Below, piece by piece: positions 217-61,750 of a DNA stretch of 64,000 nucleotides. The translations under genes and the position numbers were made by a program. The notes beneath the pieces were generated by a model, which saw only the letters and a program-made list of their open reading frames with translations, made no database searches and was not told where the DNA came from. Source of the stretch: Phorcus lineatus (Eukaryota > Mollusca > Gastropoda > Trochida > Trochidae); the NCBI GenBank assembly GCA_921293015.1, contig OV121091.1, positions 23,978,839 to 24,042,838 on the forward strand, read 5' to 3'. How positions within the stretch are numbered: the first letter of the stretch is position 1; each line of letters opens with the position of its first letter.

Positions 217-1002
217 ATGACAACCTTTAAATTTTAGCGCCTTAAATAACTAAGGTATGCTTTTTTGTGTACAATCATAATTAATTCACAGTTACTAAAA
301 AAAACATGGACCCCCCTCAACTCATTCCTACCCCTCTTTCACGTAATCAGTCAAATCAGCTTAATTAAAATCAGTTGACTGTTTATAAGAATAATAAAAC
401 CATTACCGGTCATAACCATTCTTAAACACCAGGGATTGGAGGATGGTTATGAGCATCTATGGTCACACTTAGTTAAATCAATGTAATCATATATACTGAG
501 CAGTTAATAAAACAGTTAAAACATGACAACCACCCCCTTCTGTCAATTTGTCTAGAGTATTTGATAGGATTCTGGATTGATAGGATTTATTTTCAATGAT
601 ATGTGAACATTTCTGAACACAACGATCTCATGTGACATCCAATGTCCAAACTTCATAGGCATGTTACATCTTCAAGGTTACATCATTTAGCATTGTGATG
701 TTACCAGGGTTTTTTGTCATTTCATTTGAGCAATGTAAATGTTAAATGCAATGTCAAAGCTTGGAGATGTCATTTAATTGAAGACAGAATAATGTGAAAA
801 ATCCACTGTCAAAATGAAATCTAGGAAATATTCCGTGCTCACACAGTGAAATAAACAAGCTTCCAGAATAATAGTGACAAGTCCATCCTCATATTCAAAA
901 TAAGGAACTTTTCAAACTAAAAAATATAATCTCCTATGTATTTCAGTTAAAACATAGTATTAAAGATTACCTTATAATAACAGTTCTTTAGACATGTATA
1001 TA
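217..1002. other. intergenic, no gene seen
   Basis: This is AT-rich sequence downstream of the epimerase gene. No open frame, RNA gene or clear repeat was recognised. Confidence 0.5.
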
Positions 1003-1008
1003 TTTATT
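1003..1008 (-). terminator. poly(A) signal of epimerase gene
   Basis: An AATAAA hexamer on the minus strand lies about 70 bases past the epimerase stop codon. It is the first such signal downstream and would give a short 3' UTR. Use of this site is inferred, not shown. Confidence 0.5.
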
Positions 1009-1074
1009 TTTCCAAAACCTTGAGAAATGTCCCAAGAAATAAATCAATCCTTCACTCTACCGCGTGATAATGTT

Positions 1075-4000
1075 TCATCGTTCTAGTGATGCTCTCTGGA
1101 GAGCTTCCTCCACCTCATGTCTCAGTTTGGCAATGTCCCTCCGCGGGTCATCACTGTTGACTAGAGCACTTCCGGACACAATTACGTTCGCTCCTGCCTG
1201 GGAACAATGAGACAACACCATAAATAAATTATCAGTATTTCTGAGAGTTTCGTCAAGGCTCAACTTTAAAAGAGTTGCACTCAACACAAATTTTGAATTT
1301 TGTGTCATGTTTACAGGGATGAGGATGGCATCGGTAATTAAATAAGGTCCATTGTAAATACTGGATACATTTGTTGTATGTATTGAAGGCTGATGACAGG
1401 CATTGCCAGAATGTTTCTGGTAAAGGGTTGCTATAAACTTTTAACATAATGATTCATAACTCTGAGTCTTACTTACCTCTGCACACTCACGGACAGTGGT
1501 CAGTCCAACCCCTCCGTCCACCTCGATGTCCATCGCTGGGTGCTTGTTGCGCAGGTACGACACCTGCAATAAGAAGTCACAAGGTGTTCCTGAGAGGAAC
1601 GAGAGCAAGGATACCAAAAGAGTACAAAGGTGACTAAAACATTATCTCTTTCGGTAAATAAATTTGAATGAAGCCATAAGCGCTGTAGCTTATAACTCTT
1701 TGCATGAATTTTATGATCTAACATTGACAATACACATATTAAACATTAGGATTTTGGGCAATCTCATTAAAATGAAATCTAAAATGCTCCACTACGTTAG
1801 TCGTATAGATCTCACTAGGCTCTGTTACTCGAGCCGTCAGATTTGCTTGTGACATAATTAAATCAGCCAATCATATCCTAGGGTGCAAGCAATTTATATT
1901 TGCTTATATATCCAAATGTATGTATTGTCAATATCTTTTAATTCATCCCGGCTCGGTTTGTTGGTCAAAAAAGTTAAATTGCAATTTTGCAATCTTTTGT
2001 AAAGCAATCTCTGCACACCTAAATTTAATGCTGTAGCAGACAGGACCAATCCAAAAGATATTTCTGGAATTTTTGATGAATAAAGTCTTTGTCTTTAAAT
2101 TGTAAAAAAAATTCTTGTAATTTAATTTATGGCCGTCGAGAGACATGCATTGTGATTGCTTGAAATTATATGCATCAAGCCAATGAGATCAAGAGGTCAA
2201 ATTGGAGTCAAAGGTGAACCCGATGGCTTGAGTAAAGGGGACCTTGTGATATCTATAATCTGCGTTACATAGTGCAGCAACATTTGATTTTATTTCATGA
2301 GATTGGATTTTGGTATGCGATGAATCCTTGATAATCATATATAATTAAAATCTGCTGGTCAAAGTGTGCCGTAAAGGGTTTTTTCATCATGTAATTTCTT
2401 TTGTTCTCTAGTGCAATAAATAGGTAATCATCCATGATGAACACCATGTATATGTAGTGTCACAATGCCAAACTCTAAAACAAATTCCCTGACAATCTCA
2501 TACATGCATTTAACCAAGATCCATTAGAGGCCACTCAATAACCACCTCCTTGAAGGCCTGATGAATTAGACATAATATTTCAAAATATATATGCTGCCAT
2601 CTCACCTTCTTCAAACAATCACTCATAAATTTCTGTCCACCAAATCCAGGATGGACTGTCATGATGAGAAGCAAATCGGAGAGATTCACCAGGTCGTCAG
2701 TGAGAACTTCCACTGGTGTGTCTGGATTCACTGCCAGTCCAACCTACATGAACACATATCATGATTAGAAGTTACTCTTTTAGTTCAAATGGTGAGATAT
2801 TGCATTTATCGGTTGTAGTGAAATAACATGAGATTCTACTATGGGAAATAACACTAATTGACATTTTCAAACAACAACAAATGCACGTGTCAAAGTGGAA
2901 CATGTGCATTTCCCTTCACATTGCCCATTTAAAAAAAAAAAAAAATGTGAAGGGAGGTCGCATCTTGAATAAGGCTTTTTACCTCGATCTGGGCACTTCC
3001 GTCTTACGATGATGCAATAAAACTCGCTTTTCACTAATTGAAGTAATGTAGCTCTAATTAAGAAGGTGACATACACGTAATTCCACTTTTAAATTGGAGG
3101 TTGGTCATTTATGAATACGTTACGAGTGATACATACCGATGTCACTTTATGAGTATGTTTATAACAGCACATATATCGAAGCTTGATATGTCTATGTGGA
3201 TTGCCTTGTTATATATTGTATATGACCTGTATCGATGTCTCCCGTGCTTGTGCAGATATCATGAGATGACAGTGATTTGAAAAGCATTGAGACTACTCCA
3301 GCCATAGAATGAACTTCATTAACGACTTTAGGGAATATAAATAAATGACTATACCTGTTATAAATACCAAACAAATATCTCAACTAATGAAGTAGAAAAT
3401 TTTTATATTTACACTTCCGGCCGCGCCACTCATGAAAATATCACTTTATACTTAACTCATGGTTGATGAGTTTACACGGTAAAGAGGGATGACAAGATCC
3501 ACACTTACAATGAAATACCTTAGAAATGTATAAAAAAACACATCTACAAATAAGAAGTTGATACCTTCAGTGCGTAAGTAAGATTTTAATTGAATAGGCT
3601 ACTATAGCAGTGCCTGGCTTTTATATTGTGTGTTGCAAAAAAATCTCTTTGTCTTTTTCTATTTAGAATGTAAACAGTTATACAAGACCTTCATGCCTGC
3701 CTCCTTGATCTTGCGCATACATGTCGCTGGATCTGCCGTGGCCTCGTAGTGGAAGGAATACATGTTGCCCCCTGCATCAGCTACTGGTTCAATCCACTGA
3801 AAAAAGGTCATTGCCATAATTGTTTTATTTTGAAAGAATTCACTTCGGTTCATTTTATTAAAGTAAGTTAACAATTATTCTTCTGCTATAAATAGAGTAG
3901 TCATGTTTGTGGCCATGTTTGTGTCTCAAGTAGAGACCTCTAAATCATTTGAATACATTTAACATTTGAATTTAACACACATCTGAGTAACATAATGAAT

Positions 4001-4485
4001 TATTCAAAATAAATTGGTCAACATTCATCATTTAGACAATCACTGGTGACAAGACTGACACAAGTCTAACGAAATACGGTCAAAGGGAAGTAACTCCTAC
4101 TGGCACAATTGGCACACAAATAGGCCTCTCATGAAAAGATCAATGACATTTTGTCAGGTAAAATAATAATGTTCAGATTAAAAACTCAATATCTTTATTT
4201 GGTTAAAAGTTCTGATATCAGATGTTATCATAATTAATGTACCTGTTCGGGTTTAGCAACCATCATGTGCATCTCAAAGAAAGCATCGGGCAATTTTCTT
4301 CTAAGGCATTTCACAACAGGATGGCCGAATGTGAGGTTGGGAACAAAATGACCATCCATTACATCCAAGTGTAAATAATCCGATCCACTGTCCATGAAGC
4401 GCTGACATTCTACGGCTAAGTTAGAGAGGTCTGCATTCAAAATCGACGGTGCAATTTTACACACACATCCCTTGGGGGCCGCCAT
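1075..4485 (-). CDS. RPE: ribulose-phosphate 3-epimerase, 5 coding exons
   Basis: Ribulose-phosphate 3-epimerase interconverts ribulose 5-phosphate and xylulose 5-phosphate in the cytosolic pentose phosphate pathway. Coding exons on the minus strand are 4485-4243, 3796-3689, 2743-2606, 1563-1477 and 1197-1075. Every intron is GT/AG and every junction is phase 0, giving 232 aa against 228 in human RPE. The start is the first ATG (MAAPKG), with in-frame stops just upstream. The TIM-barrel signature motifs are intact: [52 protein letters not shown] and ANVIVSGSA. By analogy to the family, metal ligands are H39, D41, H73 and D179, with D41 and D179 as the catalytic acid/base pair. The protein ends RASLER, close to the vertebrate RSLDR. 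Nothing suggests decay. Intron 2 carries a hairpin with an A15 loop (about 2911-2957). Confidence 0.97.
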
Positions 4486-5570
4486 GTTGGAATTGATCAA
4501 GGGCTATTATTGATTGTTTACCCCAGGCACCATGCGGCGTACGCCGCAAACAAAATTAAACCGGCGAACCACTTTCTTATCAACTAGCTTATGCTGAATG
4601 TTTATACGTCGCTTAATAGCGGGAAAAACGTTTCCTTGCAACATATTCTCAACATATTATTCACATGATTACTTTTAACTTTAAAATTTCCATCTGACTT
4701 ATAAAGATATAATTATATCGTATACAATGCAGCAAAGCCCATGTTTAGCGCTGTGTACTGTGATTATAAGTTTTGCCACTTGACTTTTTTTGGTATTGTT
4801 CATTGTTATTATAGAAATAGGATCTTACTATCTTAATTACACCAAAACCATTTCACGCTTTGCTTTTACACTGTGTATCTGTATTTCCTGCCAAATTATC
4901 AATTAGCATACTTAAATTTAGAGATTTGACTTTCTCTTTTTATATTTGATAATTATATTTTTATTTTGTTCCTAATACTCATCTTAGCTTGTATTGATTA
5001 TGAGTTAGATCGGGAATTGGAAGCTAATATTGCACAAAAGAAGCTATATTAAGTGCGCCCATCAGAAGCTAAGATTGTAATTTTTGAGTAAACTTAAAGT
5101 GTTTTTTTAAAAATGAAAACCTTTGGGTCAATAATTGATTTAATGAAATCATTTTTGCTTATGGAGTTCTCGCTATGTTTTCATAATCTTGTCCGTATTG
5201 ATAATGTACAGTTAGGATTGAGGCTAACAGCTTCAAATCCTGGATGGCCTGTAACACATGCAGGGGTAGAGGAGATGAGATTTAGGTTTTCAAATTCTTG
5301 AAGTTTATTGGATATTTTTTGTCGCTTTCAACAGAATCTGTTCCCAGGGTTGTCTGAACTGGTGCAACGCCGACAAGTACACCTTACATAAAGATGAAGA
5401 TGTCAAATTAAGTCTTCAGTGACAAATCTGGCTTCAAGATTGTAGTAATGTTTTATGTTGTTTTTTACTCGCCAAAAAGAAGTCATCACTAGTGGAATTC
5501 CAAATTAATTCCATAAATTGTTGCAAGAATAATGAAAGATGAAAACTTATTTTTTTACTTTGTACACACA
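4486..5570. other. epimerase 5' flank and intergenic
   Basis: This holds the presumed promoter side of the epimerase gene. A perfect 14-bp palindrome (GCGGCGTACGCCGC, 4534-4547) sits about 50 bases upstream of the start codon in otherwise AT-rich DNA. No TATA box was convincing. The remainder shows no gene. Confidence 0.4.
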
Positions 5571-5574
5571 GCTA

Positions 5575-5710
5575 GATCTCAACTACGCTTACATAAATAG
5601 ATAATACTAAACGACGTCCCGTTTAATAACAATTTCATGAAACGAGTGTGTGGTTTGGTATTTAACGGGCGAAAGCGGGATACTGATACCATTCACGAGA
5701 ATCATAAAAA
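5575..5710. repeat. fold-back repeat, 'aaatagataatactaaacg' family
   Basis: The start (AAATAGATAATACTAAACG) and core (CGAGTGTGTGGTTTGGTA, then GGGCGAAAGCGGG) recur in diverged form at 33950-34085 and 40440-40550. The core is partly self-complementary. This is a short interspersed, apparently non-coding element; its ends were not resolved. Confidence 0.5.
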
Positions 5711-5798
5711 TATAATGAAAAGGGGACTGAGTTAAGTATTTTTTACTACTCGCTGACTTATATAAAAGAAAAACCATAAACATTGCGGAGATTAAAAT

Positions 5799-6052
5799 TG
5801 CTGCCGCACCGCTAACATTTTGACGTCATGCTTAACGATTTTGACGTCATGTGACGTCTGTAGACGTCAGTCAACACGCGATAGATGTACTAAACGGCGG
5901 TATCTTCAACAGGCAGCTAATAATTAACTTTATTACTCTCCCGCAGGAGATACTGATAATAAATCTGCATTGTTATTACACATTGTGTCATGACATCGCG
6001 TTTTGTTTGTTTCTTTAGGTACGATGTCACATGATGTTAGCGGTGCGACAGC
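5799..6052. mobile_element. MITE with 20-bp inverted ends
   Basis: The termini TGCTGCCGCACCGCTAACAT (5799-5818) and its reverse complement with one mismatch (6033-6052) bound about 254 bases. Several TGACGTCA-type sites lie inside the left half. No open frame and no clear target duplication were found, so superfamily is unassigned. A non-autonomous DNA transposon is the likeliest reading. Confidence 0.6.
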
Positions 6053-6359
6053 AGTGGTAAGGTCGGCGATTTTCATTGTAACAAACTAATTAAGGGCCAA
6101 AAGGTTCATTTACGTTTATGAAACTTTTTCCGTTTTAATAATCCAGTTCCGCTTCCCAAACTTATGTTTTGATGACTAGTTTTGTATAAACCAACATGGC
6201 GACACCAATGTAGTGTGCCCCCCCCCCCGTACCATTTCACTAGAATATAATTAGTTATTGGAAACAATGGTTGGTTTTCATTTGCACCACTGCAATTAAT
6301 TTAACCTCATCCCGTGCACCCTTGCACCTTGTTTTCATTCATGCTTTTTAGAAAATATA

Positions 6360-10200: not shown

Positions 10201-11764
10201 TCGCGAAAAATTCGCAATTTGGCAAGCAACATGTGAAATCATACACCCCTCAAGATGACATTTACTCTGAATTAACACCCACTTCTTAAGAATAAAAGCA
10301 AGTGGAATGATTTCTTATTGGTATGAGATAAATAAATAATTACTAAATTATTAAAAATTTAAATCTCATGGTTCATAATCACAATTTATTTCTTCCCCTA
10401 TTACTTTAAAACCCCAATAAAACAATAACAAATCTTTCGCAAACAATGACAACCCCAGTACGTGTTGAAACAATTTCGACCAAATTTCCGCCTAAACGCG
10501 ACTATTAATAAATAAGTATTAAAAAGCGGCGACAGATCGGGCCAGGTTTAATGCTAATCATTGAAGGCTTTAGTCGCAGGAAATTACCCATCGCGTCTGG
10601 GGGAAGTTATTCTCATTAAACTGTCATTAATTATTCACACCTTCTGTCTTGACGTTTCAAACTGATGCAAGCAGCTGTTTTGTCCCACAGTCGGTTTGTC
10701 ACGTCCGTTTACCATGATACACAAGCGTGAACGGCAGCTTCCACCTCGTTGACGTTGGATGAAATTTAATCAGAGGAAGGCAATCTTGAGATGAAAATGG
10801 CTATTAACTAACGACTCAAAGACTTGATAAACTTCTTCTGCCTATATTCTTCTCATTTTGACGTTTTTCAACAACAAACGAGTGGATTATCAACGAGCTT
10901 TTCTACTCTTTTGAGTTTATAAACTACGCAATTCTCATATGGAAGAATTTTGAGTAATCCGAAAACATTAAATTTGAGATTTGAAATTGAAGTCCTGAAT
11001 CATTCCTGAATTGAGCCCGCTCAATTATATTGATCAAACAATCAGAATCGGATAAATGCCAATTTGTTTTAGAAAAAAGGAATCATCGAAATATTATCTT
11101 AATAATGAATAACTTGTAGATAAAGATATTTTTTCTGGATTAACTAGGTTTTTTTCTATTTAAGAATTTCATAAATTTAACTTATTTTACAAACTTTCTC
11201 CGATTTCGGTTTATTTATCGACTTTTATTTCGAGGTTCCGATTATAATGTCTGCTTGCATATCTCGAAAGGGAGAACTTTGGTCTTCATGGAATGGTTTT
11301 TAGATTTCATACTGCTATATCAGCATATATGTATATGTGAAGCTTCTACAATAATGTAAACATACGCTGGTTTAGCAACATGATTAGATGGATGAAATAT
11401 ATCTTCATTTTGCGTCATTTCTGCATACTTTCAACAAAAGTTTTGATCAACCATTGCAGAAAATAATTGCAACACTTTTTGACCAGGTTTTGGCATTAAC
11501 ATTTTTTCCTTCTTGTAAAAAGATCATTTTCTTTGCTTCTTCGATATCATAATTGCACATATTATTTTGATAAAAACAAGAACATAGAACAATTTCATTC
11601 ATGTAACCACTCATTGCCAGGACGTATATGTTACGAGCAGGTTTACCTTCAACCAAACGTGCCTTCTGACAGAGGCTTCACAATAATACAGCATAATGAA
11701 ATGTAAATCAAGTCCTATCATCCTACATGTATTTGAATTAAAGCCTACTGAAATGATTTCATCT
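7230..11764. other. long intergenic stretch
   Basis: No exon, RNA gene or transposon was recognised in these 4.5 kb; the open frames are short and lack codon-like content. One portion (about 10480-10760) is richer in GC, with homeodomain-like TAAT cores, and stands out as a possible conserved regulatory element of the neighbouring homeobox gene. Confidence 0.4.
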
Positions 11765-12552
11765 ACCTGAGAAATATTCAACTTTCTTATCATCTATACC
11801 AGAGAAATATGAACCTTTCCTTATCATCCATACCAGAGAAGTATTAAACTTTCCTTATCATCTATACCAGTGAAATATTAACCTTCCCTTATCATCTATA
11901 CCTGAGAGATATTAAAACTTTCCTTATCATCTATACCAGAGAAATATTAACCTTTCCTTATCCTCCATACCAGAGAAGTATTAAACTTTTAAACTTTCCT
12001 TATCATCTATACCAGAAAAATATTAACCTTTCCATATCATCTATACCAGAGAAATATTAAAACTTTCCTTATCATCCATACCAGAGAAATATTAACCTTT
12101 CCTTATCATCTATACCAGAGAAATATTAACCTTTCCTTATCATCTATACCAGAGAAGTATTAAACTTTCCTTATCATCTATACCTGAGAAATATTAACCT
12201 TTCCTTATCGTCCATACCAGAGAAATATTAACCTTTCCTTATCATCTATACCTGAGAAATATTAACCTTTCCTTATCATCTATACCAGAGAAATATTAAC
12301 CTTTCCTTATCATCTATTCCAGAGAAATATTAATCTTTCCTCATCATCTATACCTGAGAAATATTAACCTTTCGTTATCATCCATACCAGAGAAGTATTA
12401 AACTTTCCTTATCATCTATACCAGAGAAATAATTAACTTTCCTTCTCATCCATACCAGAGAAATATTAACCTTTCCTTATCATCCATACCAGAGAAGTAT
12501 TAAACTTTCCTTATCATCTATACCTGAGAAATATTAACCTTTCCTTATCGTT
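11765..12552. repeat. 34-bp minisatellite, about 22 units
   Basis: Tandem copies of a roughly 34-base unit (consensus contains CCTTATCATCTATACCAGAG followed by AAATATTAA) run head to tail with about 22 full units and a partial one. Units differ by a few substitutions (CATCCATACC, CCTGAG, GAAGTATT) and small indels. Variants are interleaved rather than blocked, which suggests unequal exchange over some time. Nearly every unit carries a TTATC (GATAA) core. Confidence 0.92.
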
Positions 12553-56300: not shown

Positions 56301-56306
56301 TGCGTG
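56301..56306. repeat. target site duplication, left (TGCGTG)
   Basis: These six bases are repeated exactly at 61745-61750, immediately outside the terminal repeats. Six-base duplications are characteristic of Polintons. Confidence 0.9.
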
Positions 56307-57282
56307 AGTAGTATAGAAGGTGGACGTAGATGCTGCTTTTTTTGCAACCATATTTGCAACCATTTGCAACCGTGAAATTTATATAGCTGCATGACGTCAC
56401 AGATCAAAGTTGACATAAGTGCATGACGTCACAGATTAAATTGAATATAGGGCGTGGTAATCTATTATGAATAATATTTAAATGGATATTAGAAGATGAT
56501 ATAATTTTCTGATATAAAATAATTAAGATAAATTTGAATTGAATGAACCCATTAGATGAATTAAATCAAGCCTTCAACATTAAACTGAAACAATACGGAA
56601 TACGAAATACAGGTAAATTTAGATGTTTAGATCTGTATGATATAAGGCAAAGGAATCTAAAGTTGGTTAATATGTCAATCAAGATAATGTACACTCGTCC
56701 ATTCACCTGACCCCGAGTGTGTAAACCGTACGTGACTTAGCTAAAGTGTGAGGATGAAACAATGGAAGGTGTGACTTGGAAAAAGATAACAATGGAACAT
56801 ACCATGATCTAAAAACCAATCATCCATAGTAAGAGAACACATTATAGAGATTCCCATGAAATCATTTGGTAGCCATTTTGGCGTGAACACCTGCCCCCTT
56901 TCACATATAAAACTGGACCAAACTTTTCGTTGAATTATAAGATTGACGTATAATTATGAAGTGTACTCTCTTGTACTGTTATGAACATAAATTATAGCCA
57001 GTGAGCGAATACAAAGTTTCTCCCGCTGTACTTATTTAAGGATTTAAATAATTTGTATATTGAAGTAATGCTGACTTTGATAACTGTTAATGTGAACAGA
57101 GGTATTTTCTTTTTTTAATGCCTGTTTACTTTTAAATATGAACAGGTAGTCGTGTGCTGTCAAGATGTGTTCCACTATAAGGGGGTCCCTAATCAAGGAT
57201 CCAGACGATTTGGTCTCCACTTGCTAGGGGCTCGTGATGCAGATACAAGCATTATTCCGAAGCGAGTGTCGCGGGTAGATGT
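56307..57282 (+). repeat. left terminal inverted repeat, about 976 bp
   Basis: Reverse-complementary to 60291-61744. It opens with AGTAGTATAGAAGGTGGACG, then three TTGCAACC motifs (56340-56372) and two TGACGTCACAGAT direct repeats (CRE cores at 56392-56399 and 56424-56431). It ends at GCGGGTAGATGT next to the TATA box. Where the right arm has 565 bases, this arm has 66 (56745-56810). A 24-base extra piece near 57243 is absent from the right arm. Confidence 0.93.
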
Positions 57283-57291
57283 ATATAAATA
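57282..57291 (+). promoter_or_regulatory. TATA box of the element's gene cluster
   Basis: TATATAAATA lies at the junction of the left repeat and the unique core, about 80 bases before the first ATG. It is well placed to drive the four frames from one promoter. The matching sequence is not present beyond the right arm, so transcription would be one-directional. Confidence 0.5.
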
Positions 57292-57367
57292 AGACATAAC
57301 GCATTTGGTCTTCATTTGCGAGAGAAGAAGAGGACAGGTCAGTCAGAGGAATACTAGAGTGAACATC

Positions 57368-57625
57368 ATGCAAAGAAGATTATACATTCCTGATACACAA
57401 AAGTTTATGGACTTTTTTGAACGTCGACGTGAGGAATCAAGAGGAAATCAAAGTCGACCTTATTCATGCATAATCGCTAACCCCACCAAAACTGAGGAAG
57501 CCACGGGGGTGAAAAGGTCCAAGACCTCTCCTAAACGTACCAAGACTATCCAAGGCGAAACAGGAGATATTGGAGGAAGATCTCATAGCAAGCATACTCC
57601 TCCTCCCAGAGATTTCTTTGCATAG
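57368..57625 (+). CDS. small basic protein 1 of Polinton-like element, 85 aa
   Basis: Starts at ATG (MQRRLYIPDTQKFMDFFE) and ends PPPRDFFA. A longer frame begins upstream only with a non-ATG codon. The first 25 residues look structured and amphipathic (FMDFFERRREES); the rest is Lys/Arg/Thr-rich (VKRSKTSPKRTKT). No known domain is recognised. Position first in the cluster and strong basic charge suggest a nucleic-acid-binding or virion-core-like protein, but this is inference. Confidence 0.55.
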   Translation: MQRRLYIPDTQKFMDFFERRREESRGNQSRPYSCIIANPTKTEEATGVKRSKTSPKRTKTIQGETGDIGGRSHSKHTPPPRDFFA

Positions 57626-57755
57626 TAGAAAACTAACAGAAGAAATCATCTTTCCTTATCCATTGTGCATGACATTCCACAGCATAAAACACTGTTACTG
57701 TAAGGGCTAAGTATTCATTTTCCCTCTGGACGGTGGAGAGAGAAGACGTATAAAC

Positions 57756-58040
57756 ATGAAGAGGCCTTCAGTGAATAGACCAAAAGACATTTTCTGTACC
57801 CATGATAAGGTAATAAAGTCCAGGAAATCAAAAACATCAGCAAAGAAACCAGTCAAGACGCGGCGACTTACATCTCAAAGGACATCGTGCAAGCAAAAGA
57901 CCTCACCTCCTGTATTGAAAATTCGGCAAATCACAACCACCCAGGGCGTTGTCAACAGGGCTCTAGCTGCATTGAAGAGACAGAGACTGGAAAAGTATAA
58001 AAAGAAATCTGCACTCCCTCTCATCACATCTTTGTATTAA
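57756..58040 (+). CDS. small basic protein 2 of Polinton-like element, 94 aa
   Basis: Starts at ATG (MKRPSVNRPKDIF) and ends SALPLITSLY, six bases before the next start codon. It is very basic and largely disordered in appearance (KSRKSKTSAKKPVKTRR), with a possible helix near the end (VVNRALAALKRQRLEKYKKK). No family is recognised. The tight spacing with the ATPase frame suggests a shared transcript. Confidence 0.55.
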   Translation: MKRPSVNRPKDIFCTHDKVIKSRKSKTSAKKPVKTRRLTSQRTSCKQKTSPPVLKIRQITTTQGVVNRALAALKRQRLEKYKKKSALPLITSLY

Positions 58041-58046
58041 ATCGAA

Positions 58047-58143
58047 ATGGAACAGGTCATCTGTCCGGATTGTGGGAAGTCCTTTTCACGAAAGGATGTT
58101 ATGTATCGACATAGGAGGAATATACACTCGCACACAGCTACGC

Positions 58144-58177
<34 letters not shown>

Positions 58178-58385
58178 GCCTCCCCCCATCTCAGTTACTT
58201 CAATGGCAACCTCGCCGCCGCCGCCTGGTTCAGTGACTTCTTATGCATCAAAGCCATCGCCGCAACCGCCGCCGTCGCCGCCTGGTTCAGTGACTTCTTA
58301 TGCATCAAAGCCATCGCCGCCACCGCCGCCGTCGCCGCCGCCGCCTGGTTCAGTGACTTCTTATGCATCAAAGCCATCGCCGCCA

Positions 58386-58428
<43 letters not shown>

Positions 58429-59876
58429 AGGAGCACCCATTCCAATTTCGTATAGCATCCTGTGGTCTTTTGGTCGGACCGAGCGGATCCGGTAAATCGA
58501 CCTTTATGTTCAATGTACTACGACAGGGACTGATCAAGCCCCAGCCCGACCATATCACCTGGTGTTATAATGTATGGCAACCTCTGTACGATCGTATTCT
58601 TCAAGTCTTACCCTTTGTGCAGTTTGTTAAAGGACTCCCTTACAATCTCGAGGATGAACATTACTTTGATGCCCACAAACAGAACGTGTTGATCCTGGAC
58701 GACTTCCTGGCTGAAGCCAAGAATGACAAGCGAATCTCTCGTCTGTTTACTCAAACTTCGCACCACAAAAATGTACTGATCTTTTTACTCCTGCAAAACC
58801 TGTGCCCCAGAGGCAAGGAATCTCGTGATATTGCTCTTAATTCACATTACGTGACCCTCTTTAATTCACCCGTGGACAGACAGCAAGTTAAGGTATTTGC
58901 TAGGAGAATATTCCCTGATGATGTCACTAAGTTCATGAGTTTATACGAAAAAGCCATTGAAACACCTTATGGAAACTTAACAGTGGACCTTAAACCTGGT
59001 ACAAGCGAGAAGAACAGACTCCATCCCAACATCTTGTCTTCTACTACTACGAGCTATCGTCAGGAGGGTGGACCACTACACCTACCACAGCCAGAGATAA
59101 AAGACGTCTCTGTCGCCTCAGGTCATCAGTTGACTCAGGACATTGTAGCTGAACACACGTCTCTTGACGAAAACATTGAAACAGCATCCTGTTCCAGTGA
59201 GGAGTCTGGTCCGTTCACCATGGCTACAGCTTGTGCTGATTGTGGTGTCTTGATAGACAATATGCATGATCTCCAAAAACACATCAAATCGTGGTGTCCA
59301 GCAAATGATAATGGCTTGAAAACCAAGAAGCGTAAACGGGTCATCTACGACACAGACAGTGAGGACGAGGGGATACAGGAGGCTTTACAGAAAGGCGGTG
59401 GAAGCAAAGATTCAAAACCATTACCTCGTCACTGGAAGCCCATCAATGACATGACAGCCGAGGAGTGGCAAAACGTTGGTTTACAACGTATCTGGAGGCG
59501 GGTTTATGACCTTTATCAAAATGATATGAAACTCACTAGGAAAAAGTACAAGCAGCGTGGCAGAACAGACGAATGGATTGATAGAAAAATGAAACAGCTG
59601 TGGGATGCTAAATTGTTGGAAAGTCTCAACAGCGTACTCGAGTTTACTCACTATTTCAAAGAGGCGCCTTTCTTTACACCAATCCTAATGAGTCTGGATG
59701 GCATAGACCCAGCTTCAGATCGAACCGTGATAAAGGAAAAGATCAGGCGCTTCATTAATCCTAAAATGAAGGACATTTCAACTCGTCTAGATCGACCGGA
59801 ATTGGAAAGTGACATGGAATCAGACATGGCTCCTGATGAGACTACTGCCGATGATGAACAAAGTGATCAGGACTGA
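58047..59876 (+). CDS. zinc finger / A32-like packaging ATPase fusion, 609 aa
   Basis: Domains in order: a C2H2 finger (C6, C9, H22, H27); a proline-rich linker (about 33-138) with three GSVTSYASKPSP cassettes between polyproline runs; and a P-loop ATPase (about 139-330). The ATPase has Walker A GPSGSGKS (144-151), Walker B VLILDD (D218, D219), the SHHKNVLIFLLLQNL strand and a DLKPGT motif. A C2HC finger (C396, C399, H412, C417) follows, then KKRKR with acidic TDSEDE, a charged Trp-rich C-terminal region (W-rich 460-580) and an acidic end. The ATPase matches what I know of Polinton A32/FtsK-HerA-like genome-packaging ATPases (WCYNVWQPLYD, FTQTSHH, LNSHYVTLFNSPVD). Polinton ATPases are usually about half this length. 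The frame is uninterrupted. Confidence 0.82.
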
Positions 59877-59938
59877 TTTAAAACATCGGTTGTGAGCTAA
59901 ACCAGCATCAGTTGACTCCCAGCCCTTTATGAGACAGG

Positions 59939-60103
59939 ATGAGTCTACCTAACTTGCTTCACATCGTGAAAACACCACGTCCACTCAAGAGAAAGAATGA
60001 CAAGAAAAAGACTATTTCCCTGTATGTCAAAGGTGTAATAAAACTTGGACCTCCTGGGCGACGAAAATTGAATAAGACAGAGGCCTTAAACTCTAAATGG
60101 TGA
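59939..60103 (+). CDS. small basic protein 3 of Polinton-like element, 54 aa
   Basis: ATG (MSLPNLLHIVKTPRPLKRKN) to stop after EALNSKW, 62 bases downstream of the ATPase. It has a short hydrophobic start and then a Lys-rich body (KRKNDKKKTISLYVKG). It is short enough to be chance. Clean context, codon use like its neighbours and the poly(A) signal 63 bases later favour a real product. Function unknown. Confidence 0.45.
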   Translation: MSLPNLLHIVKTPRPLKRKNDKKKTISLYVKGVIKLGPPGRRKLNKTEALNSKW

Positions 60104-60165
60104 CTTGATATATGACTCTGTTGACTTGGTTTTGTATCCCATTTGACAAGCAGATATTGAGAATG

Positions 60166-60171
60166 AATAAA
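60166..60171 (+). terminator. poly(A) signal of the element's cluster
   Basis: AATAAA on the plus strand after the last open frame and before the right terminal repeat, placed to end a transcript covering all four frames. Confidence 0.55.
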
Positions 60172-60290
60172 TTTTTTAAACTGCTGCCTTGTTTTGTTTT
60201 CTTTTGTTTGACACTGTTCATGTGTTAGAATCTAAGAAAAGACAAAAATATCATAACAAGAAATATATATCATGATACATACTGATAAAG

Positions 60291-61744
60291 ACATCTACCC
60301 GCGACACTCTCTGCATCACGAGCCCCTAGCAAGTGGAGACCAAATCGTCTGGATCCTTGATTAGGGACCCCCTTATAGTGGAACACATCTTGACAGCACA
60401 CGACTACCTGTTCATATTTAAAAGTAAACAGGCATTAAAAAAGAAATTACCTCTGTTCACATTAACAGTTATCAAAGTCAGCATTACTTCAATATACAAA
60501 TTATTTAAATCCTTAAATAAGTACAGCCGGAGAAACTTTGTATTAGCTCACTGGCTATAATTTATGTTCATACCAGTACATGAGAGTACACTTCATAATT
60601 ATACGTCAATCTTATAATTCAACGAAAAGTTTGGTCCAGTTTTATATGTGAAAGGGGGCAGGTGTTCACGCCAAATTGGCTACCAAATGATTTCAAGGGA
60701 ATCTCTAAAATGTGTTCTCTTACTATGGATGATTGGTTTTTGTTTTTTTTTGATTGAGATTTTTTTACATTATAAAGATATTACATTTAGCATTAAAGTA
60801 TCCTTATCAGTGAACACCTGAAAACATACAATTTCGAAAAACATGCTTCTTCCCCTATAAACATTGTAAAATATTGTTGTTTCTTTATAACACTAACAAG
60901 TATCTATTACACGAGGGAGGTGAATTGTCAAGTGGACTCTGTTGTTCACACTTTGATGTTAAGCACGTTCCATGGATAGAGCTGACCAGGAAGTACACGA
61001 AGGCCAGTCCCTGTTTTACACACAGGCTCGTGTAAATGGAAAAGTGCAAATTATCGATATATATATACATGGATTGAAAAGTCAGCCGACTTTAGATTCC
61101 CTTGACTTTTATTATACAGATTTAAAAACATTTTAAATGTACCTCTATTTATCATTCCGTATTGTTTCAGTTTAATGTTGAAAGCTAGATTTAATTCAAT
61201 TAATGGTTTTCATTCATTTCAGCTTTATCTTTTTTATTTTATCTCACACAATTATATCATATTCTGTTGTCTTATCCATATGACTATTATCCTTCCATTG
61301 TTTTCATTAGCTAAGTCACGTACGGTTTACACACTCGTGGTCAGGTGAATGGACGAGTGTACATTATCTTGATTGACATATTAACCAACTTTAGATTCCT
61401 TTGACTTATATCATACAGATCTTAACATCTAAATTTACCTGTATTTCGTATTCCGTATTGTTTCAGTTTAATGTTGATGGCTTGATTTAATTCATCTAAT
61501 GGGTTCATTCAATTCAAATTTATCTTAATTATTTTATATCAGACAACTATATCATCTTCTAATATCCATTTAAATATTATTCATAATAGATTACCACGCC
61601 CTATATTCAATTTAATCTGTGACGTCATGCACTTATGTCAACTTTGATCTGTGACGTCATGCAGCTAAATAAATTTCACGGTTGCAAATGGTTGCAAATA
61701 TGGTTGCAAAAAAAGCAGCATCTACGTCCACCTTCTATACTACT
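60291..61744 (-). repeat. right terminal inverted repeat, about 1454 bp
   Basis: Complement of the left arm, with 565 extra bases at about 60742-61306. Within that extra part, 61080-61290 is a diverged second copy of the arm's own 61390-61572 segment, sharing CCGTATTGTTTCAGTTTAAT. The CRE cores lie at 61620-61627 and 61652-61659 and the TTGCAACC triplet at about 61679-61709. The arm ends CTTCTATACTACT. Confidence 0.92.
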
Positions 61745-61750
61745 TGCGTG
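61745..61750. repeat. target site duplication, right (TGCGTG)
   Basis: Exact partner of 56301-56306. Confidence 0.9.

Follow-up and report, generated by a model that had tools for sequence, protein, structure and literature searches.

The window, a 64,000-nucleotide stretch of the genome of the gastropod Phorcus lineatus (C17:23978839-24042838), carries a compact mobile element with the ends of a Polinton (Maverick), four genes and no recognised polymerase or integrase. The element inserts into the genome as one discrete unit, bounded by ends of the Polinton type and by 6-bp duplications. Its ends, its duplications and its missing enzymes argue for replication and integration in trans, and the borrowing of a polymerase and an integrase from Polintons appears well supported at the sequence level. 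We regard it as fairly probable that the element belongs to a multi-copy, non-autonomous lineage that carries genes, descends from Polintons and behaves as their satellite. Which genes selection has kept suggests a packaging role, in which helper capsids are probably filled by the element's own zinc-finger ATPase. Genome searches covered 957,807,699 bases in 74 contigs and scored the best candidates only, so that all copy counts given here are lower bounds.

Structure and genes of the window element

The element spans positions 56307-61744 (5,438 bp) between two copies of TGCGTG; its first six bases are AGTAGT and its last six ACTACT. These termini, the 6-bp duplication and the terminal inverted repeats are those of Polintons. 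Its features are as follows.

56301-56306: target-site duplication, left copy, TGCGTG
56307-57287: left inverted arm, beginning AGTAGTATAGAAGGTGG
56388-56406 and 56420-56438, + strand: arm motif TGCATGACGTCACAGRTYA with core TGACGTCA; mirror copies at 61613-61631 and 61645-61663 lie in the right arm
57368-57625, + strand: open reading frame (ORF) 1, 85 amino acids (aa) from an ATG (the automatic ORF list uses an upstream TTG start)
57756-58040, + strand: ORF2, 94 aa, basic
58047-59876, + strand: ORF3, 609 aa, zinc-finger ATPase
59939-60103, + strand: ORF4, 54 aa, basic, conserved (...LYVKGVIKLGPPGRR...); shorter than the 60-aa limit of the automatic list and read directly from the sequence
60286-61744: right inverted arm, with final bases CCACCTTCTATACTACT, including a right-only stretch at 60742-61306
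61745-61750: target-site duplication, right copy, TGCGTG

The first-pass annotation of this stretch had described the TGCGTG flanks, the AGT...ACT ends and four frames in one direction, all of which we recovered; its arms of "about 1 kb" fit the left arm (~1 kb) but not the right one (~1.46 kb). The outer arms (56307-56744 and 61307-61744) are 98.4% identical over 438 nt and the next block (56811-57243 and 60310-60741) 97.9% identical over 433 nt, followed by an innermost block of 27 nt at 89%, which reaches 57287 and 60286. In the right arm, 565 nt (60742-61306) stand opposite 66 nt in the left; part of this stretch is an 80-86% duplicate of the adjoining arm, so neither arm is a plain copy of the other. 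The 2,998 bases between the arms hold the four frames.

ORF3 is one of only two frames of at least 130 aa in the window, the other having 196. It combines an N-terminal C2H2 finger (Pfam zf-C2H2, 2.4e-6), a proline-rich linker, an A32/FtsK-type P-loop ATPase, a second finger-like CxxC..H..C motif and a C-terminal extension; we take GPSGSGKST and NVLILDD to be its Walker A and Walker B motifs. The A32/FtsK-type assignment, a hallmark of Polintons, comes from homology to the ATPase of a Polinton on contig C41 of the same genome (tblastn 2.7e-26), with which the core aligns along its length, Walker motifs included, at 31-32% identity. The C-terminal extension has 82 genome matches, located in the families that we labelled A, B, B' and C for the present analysis, in relics or in unclassified fragments; beyond A, B and B', it is matched only in family C, in unclassified fragments and in a recombinant on C25. 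ATPases near PolB or integrase genes in this genome are short frames of about 216-313 aa, beside which neither fingers nor an extension of the ORF3 type were matched. The ORF3 ATPase is a fusion protein, unlike the plain ATPase of Polintons.

ORF1 is homologous, at 35-38% identity, to the small Polinton gene located between the minor and major capsid genes (the PW position), with E values of 1e-12 against the copy in L011, an 8.6-kb integrase-bearing element discussed below, and 1.9e-11 against the copy at C41. In vertebrate Mavericks, according to PMC8097293, this position falls within the order int, minor capsid, PW, major capsid, protease. ORF2 has 53 genome matches, located in A, B and B' loci or in relics and fragments; at the sensitivity used, it was unmatched in full Polintons of the same genome, except in B blocks that adjoin Polinton genes on C2. 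A relationship of ORF2 to the PW-like gene (E 0.022) was not accepted. ORF4 matched the tail of a 224-aa Polinton protein at 9 of 23 residues (E 3e-4) in a single comparison, which we take as a lead only.

Neither PolB nor an RVE integrase was matched in the element by Pfam, genome search or Polinton-protein queries; major capsid, minor capsid and adenain-like protease were unmatched with queries from the C41 Polinton only, and very distant versions could be missed. A search of PHROGs gave nothing useful (best E 0.076), none of 37 pattern stretches from IMG/VR was confirmed as a relative, and a PDB search with the window protein alone returned mainly zinc-finger and low-complexity matches. The first-pass annotation had proposed a streamlined lineage with Polinton ends that is devoid of PolB and integrase and keeps an A32/FtsK-type ATPase, and our results support it. 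That the element "keeps its own ATPase" is correct but incomplete: a PW-like gene and two small basic frames are kept too, and the ATPase is a fusion.

Copy families and selection on the four genes

Family A comprises at least 19 loci with ATPases 96-100% identical to that of the window; the frame is free of stops in 16 of them (including C7:663981, frameshifted in the linker), broken in two and a fragment in one. Family B comprises at least 17 loci at 77-79% identity over most of the ATPase, 16 of them stop-free, and four further broken loci; B' is represented by two loci (L037 and L038) at 73-75%. We surveyed the four frames in 33 loci besides the window, among which L042 is the same place as L051, and L045 and L055 are neighbours. 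This sample took in 17 of the 18 other A loci (C11:35936762 was left out), with an ATPase frame of 456-649 aa in 15, a broken one in L009 and a fragment in L018. The large majority of the 33 loci have ORF1, ORF2 and ORF4, and all four frames are common to A, B and B'. Frames are missing from L018 (ORF1 and ORF2), L045 (ORF1) and L055 (ORF4, with a cut ATPase). Other irregularities are an ORF2 split over two frames in L010, ORF2 frames of 165 and 163 aa in L015 and L026, an ORF4 of 43 aa in L034 and an ATPase with a stop in L046.

To what extent other Polinton genes accompany these frames was assessed with eleven query proteins (the L011 integrase and ten proteins encoded by the C41 Polinton) in the window and 27 loci, many of them limited to 1.5 kb around the ATPase. 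In all 28, matches were confined to the ATPase and the PW-like gene. Seven A or B loci outside this sample were searched separately: L009, L042, L046 and L055 have the same two genes, L016 has none, and L045 and L018 are described in the next section.

The outer 200 bases of the element have 22 matches in the genome. The terminal 17-mer has 33 with at most one mismatch, against 24 for a reversed control, and the mismatched ones may be due to chance. Exact matches number 26 and form 11 inverted pairs, including that of the window, plus four unpaired; ten of the pairs enclose elements with the ATPase, 5,241-6,527 bp long, and the eleventh an element of 8,631 bp that lacks it. Both ends are likewise resolved in the B copy L051 (2249-8057; 5,809 bp, AGTAGT/ACTACT, duplication CACGAT). 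In all, nine copies could be read to the two termini (the window, L009-L015 and L051); eight of them have perfect 6-bp duplications, of eight different sequences, and in the ninth, L012, the flanks are inverted complements of each other. Inverted pairs and duplications in such numbers go beyond what chance would give. L016, L017, L018 and L020, without recognisable intact termini, and L019, with a left terminus only, are outside this count. A one-off deletion of a full Polinton, which the first-pass annotation had named as the opposing outcome, is ruled out by this multi-copy family with paired ends and by the four-frame core common to A, B and the small B' group. Relics that carry several parts of the element together with stops (for example, C15:19463707, C39:43463411 and C37:31123030) suggest that the compact lineage is old.

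Two loci deserve a separate mention. In L012 (87-5951), the inverted repeat extends past the AGTAGT termini on both sides and the flank resembles the inner arm; the ends may be nested or added. At C39:10501632-10501825, 194 bp lie between inverted terminal 17-mers, one of them mismatched, which is possibly a remnant the size of a miniature inverted-repeat transposable element (MITE), or chance.

The arms of A and B are otherwise unalignable and have TGCATGACGTCACAGRTYA in common. Each arm of the window element and of L011 has two copies of this motif and each arm of the B element L051 has one (with a mismatch in the right arm); it is also present in one of the two B' loci. Genome-wide, it has 123 matches with at most one mismatch, and the reversed pattern has 1. 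Of 71 exact matches, 64 fall within known A, B, L011 or L016 copies (60 assigned by script and four by coordinates) and seven elsewhere. The TGACGTCA core resembles the cAMP-response element (CRE), and the motif may be a promoter, replication or packaging site.

All four genes bear marks of selection between subfamilies. With the proline-rich linker excluded, A and B ATPases differ at a synonymous divergence (dS) of 0.89 and a nonsynonymous divergence (dN) of 0.145, hence a dN/dS of 0.16 (p 2e-45); the ratio is 0.22 for A/B' and 0.15 for B/B'. For ORF1, it is 0.33 (A/B), 0.31 (A/B') and 0.23 (B/B'); for ORF2, 0.15, 0.23 and 0.60; for ORF4, 0.34 for A/B and 0.33 for A/B', B/B' being not measurable. 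Fisher tests on rounded counts gave p values from 2e-45 to 0.048 in nine of the twelve between-subfamily comparisons. With A/B ratios of 0.16 for the ATPase and 0.15-0.34 for the others, we conclude that the lineage maintains the four frames. Within A, ratios are 0.39 for the ATPase and 0.23 for ORF4; within B, they are 0.47 for the ATPase, 0.38 for ORF1 and 0.25 for ORF4. ORF4 is almost identical between B and B', though their ATPases differ at a dS of 0.52, which argues for exchange between these two subfamilies.

These ratios bear on a first rival explanation, that of a passive deletion derivative of a Polinton, mobilised in trans and carrying functionless leftovers of genes. Its small size, its lost enzymes and the ends it has in common with an integrase-bearing element are all in keeping with such an origin, and ATPase-bearing derivatives do occur, as in family C, whose ATPase sits beside PolB and integrase scraps. 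Moreover, some frames look unconstrained within families, on few changes: the ratio of nonsynonymous to synonymous polymorphism (pN/pS) is 3.1 for ORF1 and 0.98 for ORF2 within A, and 2.1 for ORF2 within B. However, leftovers would not be expected to show purifying selection on four frames between subfamilies, nor ATPase frames so largely stop-free in A and B, nor a constant pair of Polinton genes across all 28 loci. We consider this explanation quite unlikely; as to a junk coding remnant, it is ruled out for the lineage by the between-subfamily ratios, with the exceptions just given within A and B.

The ATPase search also found family C (12 loci at 30-34% identity) and further relics. Family C is a second amplified family with a fused ATPase, located beside an N-terminal scrap of PolB and a C-terminal scrap of integrase, at C9:47711971, C16:8757268, C2:51445864, C16:11310218, C29:15970594, C19:3361268 and six more loci (among the family's loci, L052 and L053 were inspected for arms). 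Its ATPase frame has 750-790 aa in eight of the 12 loci and no stop in nine; the integrase scrap shows one TAG in eight loci. No arms were found in 8 kb of L052, and L053 yielded only a 105-nt inverted pair within repeats, for which reason we left family C out as a compact element. It is possibly an independent ATPase-retaining lineage.

Co-resident Polintons, shared ends and recombinants

A Polinton on C41 (L054) shows, from the integrase, the order minor capsid, PW-like gene, major capsid, protease, a 135-aa frame, ATPase, small frames and PolB. The protease is adenain-like (Pfam Peptidase_C5 above cut-off), the ATPase has 221 aa (Pox_A32 above cut-off), and the 1,092-aa PolB frame scored 62.4 bits with DNA_pol_B_2 in the genome search, above cut-off; the capsid names are our presumption, based on gene order, and have no Pfam support. 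Between C41 and C2, identity reaches 100% for the minor capsid, PW-like and major capsid proteins, so this Polinton lineage has probably been active recently.

The ends of the compact copies were not found at C41; they are found in L011. This element of 8,631 bp has the same termini and a duplication AACGTG; it encodes an integrase of the Polinton type (rve 3.8e-8), together with fragments that match the C41 minor capsid, PW-like and major capsid proteins at 83-94% identity. The compact copies thus have ends in common with an integrase-bearing element of the same genome, as in a non-autonomous family mobilised by a Polinton. The first-pass annotation had raised the coexistence of full-length Polintons with matching ends; integrase-bearing L011 provides the matching ends, but no intact full Polinton was found. 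Two other parts of L011 should be noted: at 3188-5887, an 899-aa ORF with a DUF1280 match (5.1e-20) looks like another, inserted mobile element, and the frame at 912-1433, PolB-like by eye, is left unclaimed since no PolB match was obtained in L011.

In the outer 340 nt, L011 shares 97-98% identity with the compact copies L012 and L013, and the window ends reach 87% with either. In their cores, L012 and L013 match the window element at 96-98%. Since these copies join L011-like ends to window-like cores, ends and cores have been reshuffled, with an integrase-bearing Polinton in the same pool. In L009, between one pair of duplications, the left end is nearest to L011, L012 and L013 (96%) and the right end is 99-100% identical to that of L010. 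Arms look as though they had been exchanged between copies.

Recombination goes further at two places. At C2:54349200-54360600 (L055, L045 and L056), two B gene blocks of opposite orientation, separated by a PolB scrap, adjoin Polinton integrase, minor capsid, PW-like and major capsid genes, and ORF2 is truncated at the junction. L045 has an ATPase, an integrase and a PolB scrap, with the PW-like gene unmatched. L018, on C25, has two other Polinton genes: from 378 to 6339, a 323-aa frame that shares 52-62% identity with two Polinton proteins precedes the last third of an A element, made up of the C-terminal part of the ATPase, then ORF4 and an A-type right arm. The ATPase part is interrupted by an 802-aa frame, which we take to be like those of long interspersed nuclear elements (LINEs). 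L018 is 100% identical to the window over 216 nt and 96% over 1,174 nt; arm matches place the recombinant at about 1014454-1026849 of C25, a length of possibly ~12.4 kb. We read L045 and L018 as recombinants of compact elements with Polintons; together with the mixed ends of L009, the C2 and C25 loci argue for exchange among co-existing elements.

One may ask instead whether a full Polinton lineage with all four frames exists, of which compact copies are recent and repeated deletions. B genes directly adjoining integrase and capsid genes at C2, Polinton genes preceding the ATPase C-terminal part and ORF4 of an A element at C25, and the related fused ATPase of family C between PolB and integrase remnants would all fit. 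Yet C2 looks recombinant, given its opposite B blocks and its truncated ORF2, and so does C25, where no more than the last third of an A element is present, at 96-100% identity to the window and with a LINE-like frame inside. In addition, none of the 53 ORF2 matches lies in a full Polinton except for the two C2 B blocks, and the compact plan is common to A, B and B' at dS values of 0.5-0.9. We hold repeated deletion to be highly improbable, if slightly less so in view of the C25 locus.

A possible satellite of Polintons

The satellite reading that we favor can be spelled out as a mechanism. A co-resident full Polinton would supply a protein-primed polymerase, starting at the AGTAGT ends, and its integrase would insert the linear replication product. 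The conserved genes would have their role in transmission, with the zinc-finger ATPase filling helper capsids with DNA of the element itself, perhaps selected through the arm motif, and the PW-like and small basic proteins acting as virion or DNA-condensing parts. Some phage satellites carry a terminase part of their own, and some bacterial satellites redirect packaging with such a part, by the same logic. In its fullest form, this would be an old germline satellite of Polintons, without replication, integration or capsid genes, which steals helper capsids with a sequence-selective packaging motor and accessory virion proteins that it encodes itself: a counterpart, among eukaryotes, of phage-inducible islands. 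We put forward this full form tentatively, as possible and somewhat short of probable.

Besides the unconstrained frames within A and B and the gene sets of L045 and L018, several observations weigh against a satellite of this kind. On the side of the ATPase, ORF3 is below the Pfam cut-off for packaging families (Pox_A32 0.0042, Adeno_IVa2 0.004), a PDB profile search with the ATPase gave no packaging ATPase (best E 0.025), and AlphaFold models from the single sequence, without alignment, had predicted local distance difference test (pLDDT) scores of 37 and 47 and were discarded. On the side of the helper, the C41 integrase is split over two frames, a protein scan of the 1,092-aa frame gave Endonuclease_7 and did not list DNA_pol_B_2, and a search of 1.1 and 1.3 kb stretches did not reveal the ends of the C41 Polinton. 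L011, which contains an ORF of another kind, is a relic; the genome yielded no intact full-length Polinton with these ends, and no PolB match adjoins any of the 33 terminal 17-mer matches, both lists being possibly incomplete. Finally, we know the lineage from its sequence; virion, episome and transposition are outside that evidence.

A helper-dependent element may also employ its ATPase for something other than packaging, such as replication, segregation, control of expression or interference with the helper's ATPase. The fused fingers and extension, unmatched beside the short ATPases near PolB or integrase genes, would suit such a role, and the CRE-like arm sites could be promoters. This alternative has to account, however, for a core that aligns fully with the ATPase of a Polinton bearing capsid-position and protease genes, and for the joint retention of a PW-like gene that in Polintons lies between capsid genes. 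We deem it unlikely, without dismissing it.

The lineage can be compared with several known systems. With Polintons and Mavericks, it shares (AGT)2...(ACT)2 termini, inverted arms, the 6-bp duplication, an A32/FtsK-type ATPase and a PW-position gene (PMC8097293, PMC4028283). It differs in size, 5.4 kb against 12.7-24.6 kb for intact vertebrate Mavericks, which have (AGT)2//(ACT)2 termini (PMC8097293). It also differs in having no recognised PolB, integrase, protease or major and minor capsid genes, in an ATPase fused to zinc fingers and an extension, and in ORF2, unmatched in the full Polintons of this genome. As in non-autonomous DNA transposons and MITEs, mobilisation is presumed to occur in trans via shared ends; unlike MITEs, which have no coding capacity, the element has four genes under selection. 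Virophages and Polinton-like viruses have the same ATPase family, and some depend on another virus; they encode their own capsid, whereas the compact element has no recognised capsid gene. With phage satellites (phage-inducible chromosomal islands), the likeness is in logic only, that of a small integrated element using helper particles (PMC6431247); the compact element is eukaryotic, has no sequence relation to them and is known here from its genes alone.

A compact gene-bearing Polinton lineage is not described in the accessible parts of the literature searched, which included PMC4028283, PMC11071308, PMC11071296, PMC8097293 and PMC6431247; Repbase and subscription papers lay outside this scope, and an earlier naming as a repeat family is possible. 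Polinton particles had not been observed as of 2021, according to PMC8097293. Selection on the ATPase makes the question of such particles testable, because a capsid-less lineage has no obvious use for a motor unless fillable particles exist; the satellite reading, if true, would be indirect evidence for transmissible Polinton particles. The lineage illustrates that a non-autonomous DNA element can bear genes and be long-lived, and it provides a model of satellites whose viruses reside in animal-like genomes.

Elsewhere in the window, positions 11764-12549 hold a tandem array of a 34-bp unit in about 23 copies, with 87% matches.

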